Source: Acidobacteriota bacterium
Lineage (GTDB): Bacteria > Acidobacteriota > Holophagae > Acanthopleuribacterales > Acanthopleuribacteraceae
DNA length: 64,000 nucleotides
Direction: 5' to 3'
NCBI GenBank assembly: GCA_020439745.1
Contig: JAGQSC010000003.1
Location: forward strand, 62,001-126,000
The translations under genes and the position numbers were made by a program. This document shows positions 35,036 through 41,935 of this stretch, one piece after another. The notes under the pieces were generated by a model. It ran no database searches, was not told the origin of the DNA, and worked only from the letters and a program-made list of their open reading frames with translations. Position 1 is the first letter of the stretch. Each line of letters opens with the position of its first letter.

Positions 35036-35183
35036 ACTAGGCTGAGTCCTTATCTCTACACCCTAAACACACTATCAAAGTCTAGCGGAAAACCATGAAC
35101 AGACCAATGCTTTCACATGCCAACGCAGCAAAAGCTCTAAGTTCCAGGTGCAGCCGCCACACCGTGTTCGTACGGGAGTCATT

Positions 35184-37265
35184 ATGTCAAAGACCGTTGC
35201 CAATCTCATCGCGATCTTAAGTTTATCCGCTTGGGCCTCAGACCCATACGTCCAATATGCAGCCGACGTCCGTTGGGATGAAGACATCCACACCTACGTG
35301 GGTTTCGCCAACCCGTTACGCAGCACGGTTGAGGTGACAGTGTACGGATATTCCGCTGAAGGGGTGTTACAGGATTCCAAATCATTTACCTTGGGCCACT
35401 TCCAAAGAGTGGAGCAGAGCCTTAACCAGTTGTTTGGGTCCCAGCAAGTGGCTTGGATGAAATTGGAAAGTGACCTGGAGGTAGGTGCCTTCGTGCGTTT
35501 TGAATCGCCTGATGGCTTACGTGTCTCCACTTACCCCATGACCCCCTATGCAGGCAACGAATTCTGGGTGCCCCACATTGCACGCGATACGTCCCTGTTC
35601 TTTACTGAGATCGGCGTGGCCAATGTGGCTAATGGCATGGGCAGCGCATGGGTACAACCCTTCATGGACAATCCCGACGACGAAGAGCCGCCGCGTGTTC
35701 AGGCCGAGGTACCCCTTGCTTTACCCAACCTGACTGCGCCCTACGAACACACCGTTTTTGAATACGAATCCCTTTTTGGCGAATTAACCTCACTCCTGCA
35801 GTGGGACAATGTGCGCGTAAATGGCGATATGGCGATTGCAGCGGTTCAACATTTCGGCAAGAAAACACCTGGTATTCATCAGTTGGCTTCGGTGGCGTTG
35901 CCACGAACGCCGAGCTACGACCTGATCATCAGCCACATCAACCGCGACCGCGAGAACTTCTGGACCGGACTGGTGCTGATCAATACCAAGCCGGGCATTT
36001 TGCCGATTAAGATTCAGTCCTACTTGGATGATGGCAGTGTGTTCCAGACGTTGTTCATCGATCTCCAGCCCAACGAGAAACACACGTTCCTCATCAACAA
36101 CACCAACGAACTGGGGCTTTCGGACATCGCCGCCTGGTTCCGAGTCACCTCGTTTGAACGTACCCTTTTGGGTTATGAGATCTTTGGCTCACCGGATGAT
36201 CGCGTGATGGCTGGGATGGAACCTGCCCCCGAGCCTTCAAGCATGTTGGTGCTGCCCTACACGCCTACCAGTGATGTGCTGTGGACCGGCGTGGGTGTCA
36301 TCAACCCACACGACGAAACCATCAATGTCCAAATCGGTGGATTCGACGATCAGGGCAACATGATCGGCGTCTTTGATTGCGAACGATTGGCGCCCAACGA
36401 GAAGCGCCTCTACACTTATGACCAAATGTTTGGGGAGCGGGCATCGGAAGTCACCTGGTCTCGCGTAGACACCAACCGCGGTGTGGTTTCGGCCTTCAGT
36501 ATTACGGGTGACCGAGAACGCAATCAGTTGTCCGCCTTGCAGGGTGTCCCCAACCTCGCACTGGATGGCGCCGTCTTTGTCGCCAACTTCGAATACGATG
36601 ATTTGAGTTACATGAAGGATCAGGGCTGGACCGAAGTGCGATTTAACCCTGAGTTCCACGTACCTGACTCCAAGGGATTCGACACCGAGCGCTGGTTCGA
36701 GGCCAAGAGTGGTATTTTCCATTTGATGTTTGAATCTGAGTGGCTCACCTATGGTTTGCCCATCACCCACGAGTCGAAAGCGATGATGTCGCAATTTATC
36801 GACGTGCCCAATGACGATTTCGACTACTACATTTCGTTTTATCTGCGCTTAGTCGATCCCGAGTACACCCGCATTGACGGCAAATTCGGAATTGTCTGGC
36901 GCGAAGAGGGCTCACCCGTATACAACTGGTATGGTCTATCTGGCGAGTACATGTTGAGCGAAGATCAGCCATTCGATTTCCGCGATCGCATTCAAGTGTG
37001 GCGCTGGCGCGATGAAAACCATGCCATGACCGAGTGGATGCCCTTCGAAGTGAAACTGCCCCAGTCGGTCAAAGGAAAACGGATCCAGCTTGGACCGTAT
37101 TTTTCTCAAACCACACCACCCGAAACGTACTTGACTCGGGTGAAGGCACCCATCATGTTCGTGGACTTGGTTCAGTTGAGCCCAAAACCCTTACCGCTGC
37201 CCTTCATCCTCGATCCAGAAGGCAAAGGCAGTTTCATTCCTGACAGCATTTTGATTGAGGAGTAG
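35184..37265 (+). CDS. secreted repeat protein of unknown function
   Basis: A 693-residue exported protein. GGGAG upstream and a clean signal peptide (MSKTVANLIAILSLSAWASD) set ATG 35184. Residues 25-480 look like four related beta-sandwich units of about 100-110 residues, each with a phrase of the type TYVGFANP, TEIGVANVANG, TGLVLINTKPG or TGVGVINPHDE, followed by a VTVYGYSAEG / IQSYLDDG / IGGFDDQG strand pair and a later LQPNEK / LAPNEK turn. Residues about 480-690 form a different beta-rich domain. I recognise no named family; it is probably a surface or extracellular protein. It converges with the pseudokinase gene, the stops abutting. Confidence 0.7.
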   Translation: MSKTVANLIAILSLSAWASDPYVQYAADVRWDEDIHTYVGFANPLRSTVEVTVYGYSAEGVLQDSKSFTLGHFQRVEQSLNQLFGSQQVAWMKLESDLEVGAFVRFESPDGLRVSTYPMTPYAGNEFWVPHIARDTSLFFTEIGVANVANGMGSAWVQPFMDNPDDEEPPRVQAEVPLALPNLTAPYEHTVFEYESLFGELTSLLQWDNVRVNGDMAIAAVQHFGKKTPGIHQLASVALPRTPSYDLIISHINRDRENFWTGLVLINTKPGILPIKIQSYLDDGSVFQTLFIDLQPNEKHTFLINNTNELGLSDIAAWFRVTSFERTLLGYEIFGSPDDRVMAGMEPAPEPSSMLVLPYTPTSDVLWTGVGVINPHDETINVQIGGFDDQGNMIGVFDCERLAPNEKRLYTYDQMFGERASEVTWSRVDTNRGVVSAFSITGDRERNQLSALQGVPNLALDGAVFVANFEYDDLSYMKDQGWTEVRFNPEFHVPDSKGFDTERWFEAKSGIFHLMFESEWLTYGLPITHESKAMMSQFIDVPNDDFDYYISFYLRLVDPEYTRIDGKFGIVWREEGSPVYNWYGLSGEYMLSEDQPFDFRDRIQVWRWRDENHAMTEWMPFEVKLPQSVKGKRIQLGPYFSQTTPPETYLTRVKAPIMFVDLVQLSPKPLPLPFILDPEGKGSFIPDSILIEE

Positions 37266-40200
37266 TTAGCGGTCGCGACGTACGTCCAAAATGATGGACC
37301 AACCGTCGGGACTGTTAAAGATCTGGTCCTTACCAGAGCGCGGCATCTGTGGGATCTGCAGTGCGCCTAGCAATTGGGCTTTGCCAAACTTGTTGTCGTC
37401 AAAGACCCGAAACACCAACGGTGACCCATTAGCTTTAAAGGCGCAGGTCATGTTCCACTTGGGGTTACGTTCATCCTTGAGCACTTCGGTGGTGAATTTA
37501 CTGCCTGCCACTTCCAGTTCACAATAGGCTTCGGGCGCCTTGTTACCGATGTCATTGGCATCAGGCAGGTTTTTGGCTCCCTTCAATACCAAGGTCACGC
37601 CACCCGTGTAGTTCACAATCAGATTCTCATACTTGGCGATCAAACGAGCTACGGGTTGTTTGGCAAAGTCGAACGAGAAAGAACTGTTCCCCTTCAAACT
37701 GTTGATGATCTGTTCGTAGGTAAGCGATGCATCCATTTCAGCTTTCGATTCCCATTCAAGCACCTTGGCCATCTTTTCCTGGTCACTCTTCACGCGATCC
37801 TGAAGGGCTTGAGCCTCCACATAGACTTCATCCGATGAGAAATTACTGAACTTCTCAAGAAACCCTCTGATGCGACGGTCCACATCGTCATACGTGCCAC
37901 CGAGATTTGACTTTAGTTGCGCAAACTGTGTGTCGAAGTCTTGCAGGGTTCGACGCATCTTGTCTCGTTCACTGCGGAAATGGGCCGTGTTGCTGATACG
38001 CACAATCGCGTCGTAGGTCTTGACGGCCTCTCGAGGACTGCTGCTTCTTTGCCGCTGGGCTTGATCTTCAAGCCTCGAAAGAGAGGTGCTCAAGGCTTCC
38101 TTAGCTGCGGGATGCTCGGAATCCAGCGCCAGCAATTCGTTGGCAAAAAGGCCGGCACGCGCATAATTATTGCCGCTTAGCGCCTGATCCAGTTTCCGTT
38201 CCACATCGCGAATCTTGGCGTTGTTCAGCTCCCGATTCAAGAGGTTCTTGCGGTCTTGAAGGGCCACATCGTCGGGACGGATCCGGGCCATGATCTGCAA
38301 GTAACCCAACACCTTTTCAGGCTGGTTCTTTTGTTGGGCATCGGCCACCAGTTGTTCAAACTCCGCCATCTCTTGGTCCCAGCGGGCGTCGATGGCTGAC
38401 GCATCATCGACGGTTGCTTTCACTTGATCGGTGATTTCAAAAGCTTCGTCCCATTTCTTGCGCTTTATGGCTCGATCCAGCTTGTCCAATTCAGGCTTAA
38501 TGACATTTTCATGAACCCACTGCTGTAATTGGTCCTGAAAGGCCGCATCGCGAAAATTGGGGTCAATCTCACGCACCTGCACATACATTTCGCGGGACTC
38601 TTTCACCGACCCAGCATCAAACAACATCTGCGCTTCCCGCATACGGTCATCTCGTATTTCAGCCAACAAATCAAGGCTGGGCTGATGGGTGGCATCAATC
38701 GCGAGGTTGCGCTTCAGATAAGCCACCGCATTTTCGTCCGAGCTGTCGATGAGTAGCCCATCGGCCACGTAATCCCGGGCCGTTTCCAAGTTCTGCGCAA
38801 TTTGATTCTTACGCTGTGTAATTCGATCGTTGATTTCTGAAAGACGGCTGCGCACATCGCGGAATTCGGGCGCTTCTTGTACGAGTGACGCCCATTGATT
38901 GGCGGCATCATCCCAACGGCCATCGCTTTCAGTTTGGTGGGCCTTGGCATACAGTCCCGCCAATTCTTTGTTGCGCTGACTGTTCTTGTAGAACACAAAG
39001 CCGCCTGCACCCACAGCAATCACCACGACAGCGGCGATGATGCCGATGAGCATCCCCTTCCCTTTTTTCTTCGCCGGCGGCGCCGCTGCTTGAGGGCCGT
39101 GGGGCGGTGCGACGGGTGCGGGCGGTGCCTGGGGCGACACGGTGGGCAAAAGCTCTGTGGCCATTTCCGATTTGAACAGCGTTTTGTCTTTGGCGATCTG
39201 CATGGTGCGGCCCGCGCCCAGCGACTCCAATAATTGGTGGGCCTTGGTGTAATTCGGGTATCGGTCAAGCAGTTCGTTCAAGCGCTGCACAGCGCCTTGC
39301 ATATTCCCCTTTTGCACCATGCTCTGTGCTTCCGAGAATCGCCACTCCATTTCTTGGTTCAGTTCTATTTTCTGACGGATGCGGCGTTTTAAGGAAACCA
39401 GTTCCGGCACTTCGCTAAATCGTTGTTCCGCATGCTCGATGAGCGAGGATGCCTGATCCAACTGACCTTCCATCTCCAGCTGATTGATTTGGCGCAGGAA
39501 CTTGACCAGTTCACGACCCGACTGTACCTGGTTCTCGGCTTGGCTCAGGGCCTGCATGGCACCTGCATGGCCCGGCTGAATCTTCAGGATACCTGTGGCC
39601 ACCTTATGGACACCGCTAAAGTCGTTTTTTTCAAATAGCTGTGATATTTTCGCCATACCCCGTTCAATCGCTTGCTCGCGGGCAGCTGTGGTGGCCCGAT
39701 CGACTAAATTCACCAACGCCGGATCGTCAGGGTATAGCGTGAGATAACTCTTGCCTTTGTCTAAAGCCTCATGAATTTTGCCGTCAGAAAGCAGCATCTG
39801 TACTTCGAGAACGGCCTCTTCTATGCCGTGTTGAATCCCCGTGTTGTTGACCGAACCCATGAGTTCAGAAATAGGGCTCATGACCGTTGGCTGTTCGTTC
39901 ACATCCATGCCAGGAGGTGCAGATGCGCCTGGCTTCATGGCGGGCATCATGACGGTGGGACCATCCGGCGTGGCTGGGGGCATTGGCGCGGGCTTGGGCG
40001 GCGGTTCTGGTGCTTGAGCCGTGAGCACATGGCGCCACTCATCTTGGGCGTCTTGATTGCTTGGGTCCTGAACCAGCGCGATGGCGAATAAACGTTGTCC
40101 CAAGGTCGTTCTGTTACCGGACTTGGCCCTCTGTGCTGCCGACGTAATGGCAAACACATCGTAATGAGGATCAAAATCAACGTCACTTTCCAGGAACTGT

Positions 40201-41423
40201 TCAAAGATAAACTTGATCGTTTTCCATGCCTCATTGGTGTCAGGGGCAAGGTTCAAAACACTGACTGCTTCCCTCAGGGCCGCGTCAAACTCTTGTCGGT
40301 CCATGTGGTTGCTCGACCTGGCCAGCAACGCCTTCAATTCGGGACTCAAAAGCTGGTTCTGAAACTGGCGGCGCAACATCTTGGCGCCTTCATGACCGGG
40401 GAATGCCATCAATACCGCATCGATGGACTGCACGGCCCTTTCAATTTCGCCATTGGCAGCCATGCGATTGGCCATATTCAGGTCGTGATCAATTTTGGCC
40501 ACATCTGCCTCGGACCAAAACGCCTCAGCCGCACCGGGCGTCGCCAACACATCATCCCGTTCACCTGCAGGGAGCATGAAGGCCAAGGCTTGTTTAAACT
40601 CAGAAAGATGCATGAACCGCTGCTGTGGGTCTTTGCTCATGGCACGGGCCATGATGCGACTCAGCCCCAAATTCACGTCCTGATTAATCGATTGGGCATT
40701 TGGTGGATTCACCTCGAGGTGGCCCTTGCGAATGGCGTCGAAATCACCGTCGAACGGCAATCGCCCAGTGACCAACTCAAATAACAGAACGCCCAGAGAA
40801 TAAAGGTCACACGAAACCGTCATCTCGGTACCGAGCAGGTGCTCGGGCGACACATATCGAATATCAAATAATGATGAAAGGCCAAGGAGCTTTGCAACTT
40901 GCAGTTCAAAATCATACAAGCCGTAGTTTCTCAGAGAAATCGACCCGTCGTAGCCCAGCAGCACATCGGAAGGTTTTAATTGGAAATGGGCAGCGCCCCG
41001 CGCATAAACAGATTCAAGCGCCTTAAGGGTTTCAATGGCAATTCGCGTGGAGAAATTGGCGGGCAAGCAACCCACTCGTTTCATCAGGCGGTCCAACCCC
41101 ACACCCTGCCGCCATTCATATAAGAACACCAGTTCCTGACCCACGGTGCGCAAGCCTATGGGACGGTTCAATGCCTCATGAACAAGTCCGTCGAGCATAT
41201 AGGCTTCCGACGACCAGTAATCCCGCACGGTCGCATGTAGGTCCGGCTCCAGATGGTACACTCGGCCGCCAAACATTTGGCCACTATTCTTCTGCGTCAA
41301 GATCATTTCAGTCATCACCGGACTGATATCCGTAACCGCAACAATCTGATAGTCTTGACCCAATTTCAATTGGGCGGAGTGTGCAATTGCTGAAAAGATT
41401 CTGGTCCCAATCGTCATTGACAT
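37266..41423 (-). CDS. pseudokinase-TPR-transmembrane-C2 domain protein
   Basis: A 1385-residue protein. Residues about 20-285 have the Hanks kinase fold signature at the C-lobe (RYVSPEHLLG, CDLYSLGVLLFELVTGRLPFDGD), but catalysis should be lost. HRD is HFQ (146-148), the expected DFG is NYG (166-168), and there is no clear Gly loop or VAIK lysine. A long helical, TPR-like and coiled-coil region follows (300-1265), broken by a Pro/Ala-rich stretch and one transmembrane helix near 785-808 (MLIGIIAAVVVIAVGAGGFVF). The last 112 residues (1274-1385) match a C2 domain: VTLVLKGAKNLPDANDIGNK, RNPKW and LVFRVFDDNKFGKAQLLGALQI. The topology places the pseudokinase in the cytoplasm and the C2 outside it. 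C2 domains bind membranes or calcium and are uncommon in bacteria. It may act as a scaffold or sensor. Confidence 0.85.
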   Translation of the reverse strand: MSMTIGTRIFSAIAHSAQLKLGQDYQIVAVTDISPVMTEMILTQKNSGQMFGGRVYHLEPDLHATVRDYWSSEAYMLDGLVHEALNRPIGLRTVGQELVFLYEWRQGVGLDRLMKRVGCLPANFSTRIAIETLKALESVYARGAAHFQLKPSDVLLGYDGSISLRNYGLYDFELQVAKLLGLSSLFDIRYVSPEHLLGTEMTVSCDLYSLGVLLFELVTGRLPFDGDFDAIRKGHLEVNPPNAQSINQDVNLGLSRIMARAMSKDPQQRFMHLSEFKQALAFMLPAGERDDVLATPGAAEAFWSEADVAKIDHDLNMANRMAANGEIERAVQSIDAVLMAFPGHEGAKMLRRQFQNQLLSPELKALLARSSNHMDRQEFDAALREAVSVLNLAPDTNEAWKTIKFIFEQFLESDVDFDPHYDVFAITSAAQRAKSGNRTTLGQRLFAIALVQDPSNQDAQDEWRHVLTAQAPEPPPKPAPMPPATPDGPTVMMPAMKPGASAPPGMDVNEQPTVMSPISELMGSVNNTGIQHGIEEAVLEVQMLLSDGKIHEALDKGKSYLTLYPDDPALVNLVDRATTAAREQAIERGMAKISQLFEKNDFSGVHKVATGILKIQPGHAGAMQALSQAENQVQSGRELVKFLRQINQLEMEGQLDQASSLIEHAEQRFSEVPELVSLKRRIRQKIELNQEMEWRFSEAQSMVQKGNMQGAVQRLNELLDRYPNYTKAHQLLESLGAGRTMQIAKDKTLFKSEMATELLPTVSPQAPPAPVAPPHGPQAAAPPAKKKGKGMLIGIIAAVVVIAVGAGGFVFYKNSQRNKELAGLYAKAHQTESDGRWDDAANQWASLVQEAPEFRDVRSRLSEINDRITQRKNQIAQNLETARDYVADGLLIDSSDENAVAYLKRNLAIDATHQPSLDLLAEIRDDRMREAQMLFDAGSVKESREMYVQVREIDPNFRDAAFQDQLQQWVHENVIKPELDKLDRAIKRKKWDEAFEITDQVKATVDDASAIDARWDQEMAEFEQLVADAQQKNQPEKVLGYLQIMARIRPDDVALQDRKNLLNRELNNAKIRDVERKLDQALSGNNYARAGLFANELLALDSEHPAAKEALSTSLSRLEDQAQRQRSSSPREAVKTYDAIVRISNTAHFRSERDKMRRTLQDFDTQFAQLKSNLGGTYDDVDRRIRGFLEKFSNFSSDEVYVEAQALQDRVKSDQEKMAKVLEWESKAEMDASLTYEQIINSLKGNSSFSFDFAKQPVARLIAKYENLIVNYTGGVTLVLKGAKNLPDANDIGNKAPEAYCELEVAGSKFTTEVLKDERNPKWNMTCAFKANGSPLVFRVFDDNKFGKAQLLGALQIPQMPRSGKDQIFNSPDGWSIILDVRRDR

Positions 41424-41437
41424 ATCAATCTCACTTC

Positions 41438-41935
41438 ATGACCGACGGCGCGCGCGAACAAGCTCGAATTAACTGGCTTACATTGTTGCCCATGACATTA
41501 TATACGGCAAGCATTGGTTTTGCTGCGCAAGAAGCTGGTTCTCCGAAACTTGGCATCCTATTGCAATCCCATGCGTCGGAAATTGTGCTGCAAGCCTGCC
41601 TATCGCAATCGGTTCCCACTTTGATCGCGTCTCGTCCGGGGCCTATTCACCTGGCACGTGGTCTGCGGGTGTTACCCAATCACGTATTGCCAGACGCACC
41701 CTATCCTCAGTTCCTCGTGATTTCTGGCTTTGAATCATTGACCACGCTGGAGCTTGCGTATGTTCGAGCATGCCTGGTCCGCGGCTCGCAGGTTATTTGG
41801 ATTGGACCCAGTTTCCCGGACTCGTTCGCGTCCATGCCGCTAAAACCAGGCCAGGAGATTCGCCGACTCGACGTAGAACAGCTTGCCGACTATTTAAAGG
41901 GGATCAGTCAAAACGCCAGCGAACACCCAGATTGA
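41438..41935 (+). CDS. hypothetical protein
   Basis: A 165-residue reading frame that fills the gap between two divergent/convergent minus-strand genes. It starts 15 bases from the pseudokinase ATG and overlaps the 3' end of the FadL-like gene by 32 bases. The sequence has a regular alpha/beta rhythm (LGILLQSHASEIVLQACL, PTLIASRPG, FLVISGFESLTTLEL, GSQVIWIGPSFP) compatible with a P-loop-less RecA-like or Rossmann-like fold, but no motif was recognised. There is no ribosome site before ATG 41438. It is probably real because the stretch is otherwise empty. Confidence 0.5.
   Translation: MTDGAREQARINWLTLLPMTLYTASIGFAAQEAGSPKLGILLQSHASEIVLQACLSQSVPTLIASRPGPIHLARGLRVLPNHVLPDAPYPQFLVISGFESLTTLELAYVRACLVRGSQVIWIGPSFPDSFASMPLKPGQEIRRLDVEQLADYLKGISQNASEHPD

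Follow-up and report, generated by a model that had tools for sequence, protein, structure and literature searches.

What might a protein do that combines a kinase-like domain without catalytic residues, a single membrane helix and a C2 domain, the last being a typically eukaryotic module? This question is raised by a gene on the minus strand of a 64,000-nucleotide stretch of DNA (the window in what follows) from an Acidobacteriota bacterium (genome G000; GenBank assembly GCA_020439745.1, contig JAGQSC010000003.1, positions 62,001 to 126,000). Starting from an ATG, its open reading frame (ORF) occupies exactly positions 37266 to 41423, as the initial annotation of the sequence had it, and encodes 1385 amino acids. 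At the level of architecture it is secure that the product combines a transmembrane pseudokinase with a C2 domain at its C-terminus.

One full-length orthologue each can be found in all seven examined genomes of Acanthopleuribacter, Sulfidibacter and their relatives, which we take to constitute the family Acanthopleuribacteraceae. These genomes (G000-G006) represent five genera and include Acanthopleuribacter pedis, Sulfidibacter corallicola and three metagenome-assembled genomes; the frames comprise 1227-1435 residues with 26-62% identity, and all family comparisons below rest on these seven sequences. The class contributed 54 further genomes, in which only ordinary kinase matches and no full-length orthologue were seen. 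Within the class, the search for homologues with the same domain order that had been proposed at the outset leads to a single family.

Kinase fold and catalytic residues

With respect to the N-terminal domain (residues 22-285, positions 40569 to 41360, on the minus strand as are all parts of this gene), the Pfam profile Pkinase (PF00069) matches residues 70-271 with an E-value of 3.2e-18, its 66.5 bits well exceeding the cut-off of 31.7, and the solved sequences closest to the protein are those of the bacterial Ser/Thr kinases StkP, PknE, PknA and PknB. AlphaFold2 (AF2) models, which were built from six sequences, predict for residues 1-300 a complete two-lobed kinase with both the N-lobe and the C-lobe folded (predicted local distance difference test score, pLDDT, 87), and with this model Foldseek retrieves PknB, Stk1 and PknA in alignments of about 270 columns, with E 1e-17 to PknB and Stk1.

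The catalytic residues were compared in an alignment of the seven orthologues with 11 intact kinases from the window genome as controls. All three residues expected of an active Ser/Thr kinase, i.e., the Lys of VAIK and the Asp residues of HRD and DFG, are absent from the window protein and from its six orthologues. HRD is replaced by H[F/L/D/A][Q/M], and thus by H-x-Q or H-x-M and never with the Asp, the window protein having HFQ (residues 146-148, positions 40980 to 40988); DFG is replaced by N[Y/F/I]G with invariant Asn and Gly, here NYG (residues 166-168, positions 40920 to 40928). The Gly loop and, in the aligned column, the beta-3 Lys are likewise gone in all seven, with an invariant Arg (R54) adjoining the Lys column. 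Judged by its sequence, the domain qualifies as a pseudokinase, a kinase fold without catalytic residues. The initial annotation had called it so from one sequence and had suggested a structure prediction; the predicted fold matches solved kinases, and the losses turn out to be common to the whole family.

A census of the window genome yielded 59 kinase-fold ORFs, all but four of which read Lys/Asp/Asp at these positions. The four exceptions are L110, which has an alignment gap, L109 with a partial loss, and the window protein and a second protein, L096, which are devoid of all three residues. Since only two of the 59 lack the complete set, the loss is specific and conserved and not part of a general decay. 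With about 59 kinase-fold ORFs in 5.1 Mb, nearly all catalytically intact, the genome has a large bacterial kinome. L109 itself (L109:760-5928, contig C8 of G000) is a kinase-like ORF of 1723 amino acids which has HYQ and DLN, keeps VLIK and also contains AAA_16, GAF and SpoIIE phosphatase domains; to judge from these motifs it is a third, partly degenerate kinase. A possible separate pseudokinase is found in another Acidobacteriota family (L067, genome G299), where a kinase-like ORF containing tetratricopeptide repeats (TPRs) has HGS for HRD and keeps DFG. A role of the window protein in anti-phage defence was considered and rejected, as the PADLOC matches (PD-T4-6, mad6) fall within the kinase domain or begin there and are accounted for by the generic kinase profile.

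The second pseudokinase, L096 (L096:3839-7315, corresponding to G000:C27:246841-250314 outside the window), has the order pseudokinase, transmembrane helix, TPR-like region and an FGE/sulfatase-modifying-factor domain (E 2e-53), the latter without a Cys pair at what we take to be the position of the active-site pair in human FGE. Together with its orthologues L153-L158 it is represented in all seven family genomes, and in this family the HRD Asp is lost in 7/7 and the DFG Asp in six members. The kinase domains of the two families align over 258 columns, and their outer solenoids end to end over 331 columns with E 6e-18, compared to E 0.12 for a control TPR family of only two sequences. Common descent of the chassis shared by both proteins is thus likely from these alignments.

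Membrane topology and the C2 domain

As judged by simple hydropathy, which was also used for signal peptides, the window protein has one hydrophobic helix (residues 792-810, positions 38994 to 39050) preceded by KKKGKG, and each orthologue has a single such helix at the equivalent place, as the initial annotation had claimed for the protein of the window. In 7/7 orthologues, Lys and Arg are more frequent on its N-terminal than on its C-terminal side. This charge bias favours an N-in/C-out topology, which would place the C2 domain in the periplasm, and speaks for its earlier assignment to the far side of the membrane.

Of the linker formerly described as TPR/coiled-coil, the TPR-like helical part is borne out by Pfam and by the structure model, and the coiled coil is not. 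On the predicted cytoplasmic side there are a helical, TPR-like region at residues 300-480 (positions 39984 to 40526, with inferred boundaries) and a second one at residues 530-735 (positions 39219 to 39836), which contains a Pfam TPR_14 match at 699-732 and is replaced by a Pro-rich, acidic linker in four orthologues. Beyond the membrane helix, the AF2 model of residues 812-1385 (pLDDT 89) consists of a long helical solenoid, predicted to be extracytoplasmic (residues 813-1260, positions 37644 to 38987) and collinear with that of L096, followed by eight strands at 1273-1383.

These strands form the C2 domain (residues 1262-1385, positions 37269 to 37640). The Pfam profile PF00168 matches residues 1276-1358 with E 1.9e-12 and 47.7 bits against a cut-off of 22, and its score exceeds the cut-off in all seven family genomes. 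Like that of the kinase profile, this match is not due to chance. The C2 model aligns by VIA-align with the C2B domain of a trypanosome extended synaptotagmin (Z 15.1, root mean square deviation (rmsd) 2.2 A over 112 residues), with similar values for the C2 domains of PLC-delta, intersectin-2, Munc13 and dysferlin and concordant Foldseek results, and a family profile compared to the PDB by sequence ranks ferlins, extended synaptotagmins and synaptotagmins first. The eight-stranded sandwich of the model is therefore a C2 fold and not an unrelated beta-sandwich, the outcome that could have overturned the initial assignment. In addition, the turn previously noted as RNPKW is present in the form N-P-x-W with invariant Pro and Trp, and a tail, G-W-x3-D-[IV]-[RQ]-R-x-R, is strongly conserved across the orthologues.

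In turn, the residues that would be required for calcium binding are poorly kept. At the five Asp ligand positions of loops 1 and 3, taken from an alignment with synaptotagmin-1 C2A, the window C2 has N, A, D, N and Q, so that of the partial retention of calcium ligands reported earlier only a weak remainder holds, namely one of five Asp and an adjacent Asp, the other four positions being lost. No family member shows the five Asp of a calcium-binding C2; acidic residues number four in L050 and L052, three in L051 and none in two further orthologues. Because the ligand positions vary, with two orthologues lacking any acidic residue, calcium binding is not conserved family-wide, though it may survive in some members.

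The C2 profile matches exactly once per genome in the seven family members, always in the pseudokinase-C2 protein, and nowhere in the remaining 54 genomes of the class or in 14 control genomes. Among 396 Acidobacteriota genomes sampled phylum-wide, which included the genus pair of the window and none of the other five family genomes, nothing was found outside this pair. When the outer region, solenoid and C2 together, was used as the query across the phylum, full-length matches were again confined to the two family members drawn; other Acidobacteriota matches to the outer solenoid were set aside, those inspected being mostly plain TPR proteins. Within the genus pair the C2 is the slowest-changing domain (77% identity and a non-synonymous distance dN of 0.19, versus 62% and 0.32 for the whole protein, with synonymous sites saturated), and across genera its identity is 36-42% versus 31-34% for the kinase.

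The head-to-head gene and the proposed function

In six of the seven family genomes, a small gene on the opposite strand starts about 14-90 bp from the pseudokinase start, depending on the start codon chosen; in the window it occupies positions 41438 to 41935 of the plus strand, its start codon being ambiguous. Neither this gene nor the paralogue L096 had been noted in the initial annotation. These partner genes are homologous (E as low as 2e-49 between genera), and in each of the six genomes a partner profile has its sole strong match at the pseudokinase locus. A comparison of the surroundings of all seven loci shows that the flanking genes otherwise differ between genera, and the maintenance of the divergent pair amid such shuffling is evidence that the two genes are linked in function or in their regulation.

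The partner product is probably exported, as a signal-like hydrophobic stretch at its N-terminus is clear in four of the six copies. It matches no Pfam or NCBIfam family, PF01965 included, and its only PDB matches are DJ-1/PfpI isonitrile hydratases, all below significance (E 1.6). A profile-profile comparison with the N-terminal half of DJ-1/PfpI proteins from the same genomes gave a probability of 85% (E 6.5e-6, against E 0.3-0.5 for three unrelated profiles), with an alignment that stops just before the nucleophile Cys, the nucleophile-elbow position being occupied by Gly in the partner. The partner thus weakly resembles a DJ-1/PfpI half-domain cut before the catalytic Cys, and by these features falls outside that family.

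On the other side, the stop codon of the pseudokinase gene directly abuts that of a convergent gene on the plus strand (positions 35148 to 37265, stops at 37265/37266), which codes for a 705-aa protein without Pfam match. It was rejected as a functional partner, because its paralogues form a large family with 27 matches in the genome and its best match in G002 lies on another contig. In Sulfidibacter and Acanthopleuribacter, a gene for a VIT-VWA domain protein adjoins the pseudokinase gene (L044:3707-6016, with counterparts in L046 and L047).

As to function, we consider the chances even that the protein is a non-catalytic single-pass transmembrane scaffold or receptor; signalling through the pseudokinase as a scaffold, which the initial annotation had raised, is plausible. 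The pseudokinase and the first TPR-like repeats would reside in the cytoplasm, one helix would pass through the inner membrane, and a periplasmic solenoid would bear the C2 head, which would dock, most likely independently of calcium, onto a protein or a membrane surface. Binding outside might be relayed across the membrane to the pseudokinase, which in turn might hold or position cytoplasmic partners, possibly including some of the approximately 55 intact Ser/Thr kinases of the window genome, and the exported product of the head-to-head gene would be the first candidate for an outer ligand or co-factor. In this scheme we infer the N-in/C-out topology, calcium independence, scaffolding and partner interaction alike, while the domain architecture, the missing catalytic residues, the two folds at the level of models, the conservation throughout the family and the linked gene are established. 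The existence of a second pseudokinase built to this plan, whose collinear solenoid carries another head, suggests a design like that of a receptor in which the outer modules can be exchanged. A more specific version, which is possible though doubtful, holds that the two families are a receptor set on one chassis with swappable heads (C2 or FGE-fold), in which a calcium-free extracytoplasmic C2 recognises the exported, catalytically dead DJ-1/PfpI relative encoded head-to-head.

Several observations weigh against the scaffold or receptor. The charge bias across the membrane helix is modest, with positive residues flanking both sides; the homology of the two solenoids may in part be generic to TPRs, as the protein's own cytoplasmic repeats score E 8e-12; the signal peptide of the partner is weak in the window and G001 copies; and as the partner profile has no match in G002, the partner is not essential to the pseudokinase-C2 protein everywhere. 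Furthermore, lipid binding or a purely structural role would fit nearly as well.

Such a structural role, rather unlikely in our view, would be that of a tether that links the inner membrane, via solenoid and C2, with the outer membrane or a different surface of the envelope, with the pseudokinase as a mere cytoplasmic anchor. A helical solenoid of about 450 residues ending in a membrane-binding type of domain would suit this, the more so as eukaryotic C2-ended proteins such as the extended synaptotagmins, which are among the best structural matches to the C2 model, act as membrane tethers. However, the pseudokinase is well conserved, with N166 and G168 invariant, which would be superfluous in an anchor, and the paralogue L096 bears an FGE-type head, for which we know of no membrane-binding precedent.

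It is unlikely that, as the initial annotation had envisaged, the periplasmic C2 behaves like a classical C2 domain in binding Ca2+ and phospholipid and uses the pseudokinase for signalling. The C2 fold is solid, and the acidic ligand residues of L050, L052 and L051, together with the one ligand position and the adjacent Asp of the window C2, would be in line with such sensing; no ligand position, however, is conserved family-wide, most Asp residues of loops 1 and 3 being absent in the window genus and all of them in two orthologues, and in a marine periplasm, which is probably always rich in calcium, Ca2+ would be a poor signal. Calcium sensing was therefore abandoned as the main function of the family.

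A further alternative, another enzymatic activity of the kinase-like domain of the kind seen in SelO and SidJ, is very unlikely: bacterial pseudokinases with AMPylase or glutamylase activity set a precedent (PMC12599244), and all seven orthologues have Asn in place of the DFG Asp, but SelO and SidJ keep ATP- or metal-binding residues, namely VAIK Lys and DFG Asp (PMC12599244), whereas the present domain retains neither the Gly loop nor the beta-3 Lys nor the Asp of HRD or DFG. Finally, that the gene is a decaying kinase without present function is, despite the lost catalytic motifs, refuted beyond reasonable doubt by intact frames and a preserved domain order in 7/7 genomes and by the slow change of the C2.

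Comparison with known systems

Each of the elements, kinase fold, C2 fold and membrane pseudokinase, is already known; their joint occurrence, its confinement to a single family and the gene linked to it were found described nowhere in the open-licence literature searched, in which no paper on a pseudokinase-C2 protein or on an Acidobacteriota C2 domain could be found either. Few bacterial lineages are known to have transmembrane pseudokinases, and for most of these proteins no function is known. The present case contributes one that occurs throughout its family, has a paralogue, bears an outer module of an unusual type and comes with a candidate partner encoded next to it, which makes its mechanism testable. 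The confinement of the C2, within the phylum sample, to one family with one protein per genome bears on the entry and reuse of eukaryotic-type docking modules in bacteria.

The mycobacterial MviN carries a multi-pass flippase part, from which the window protein differs in having no MurJ/MviN flippase Pfam match and one membrane helix only. MviN (ActPs3) is also a membrane protein with a pseudokinase, which binds neither ATP nor Mg2+ (PMC12599244). Another precedent is EssB/YukC of type VIIb secretion, a non-catalytic scaffold with a cytoplasmic pseudokinase in which the Gly loop and the three motifs are degraded, one transmembrane helix and an extracytoplasmic part (PMC12599244). The window protein shares the degraded cytoplasmic pseudokinase, the single helix and an extracytoplasmic part, and instead has long TPR-like solenoids and a C2 head. 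Membership in EssB or the type VII secretion system was rejected, as the YukC profile (PF10140) has no match in the window protein at E 10 and none in the five family genomes searched (G000-G004), with a positive B. subtilis control.

In sequence and fold, the nearest solved kinases are PknB and StkP, which likewise have an N-terminal kinase, one transmembrane helix and an extracytoplasmic sensor; the window protein differs by the missing catalytic residues and by a TPR-like solenoid and C2 in place of PASTA repeats, and the NCBIfam model for PASTA kinases (NF033483) reaches only 104.6 bits, in the kinase part alone, against a cut-off of 450. With eukaryotic C2 domains (extended synaptotagmin, dysferlin/myoferlin, intersectin-2, PLC-delta) it shares 109-114 aligned residues at Z 14-15 and rmsd 2.1-2.4 A as well as the N-P-x-W turn, whereas here the domain is bacterial, predicted to be extracytoplasmic, mostly devoid of calcium ligands and fused to a pseudokinase. 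A further counterpart is L096 in the same genomes, with the same order, a single transmembrane helix, a lost HRD Asp and a collinear outer solenoid, and with an FGE domain at the C-terminus in place of the C2.

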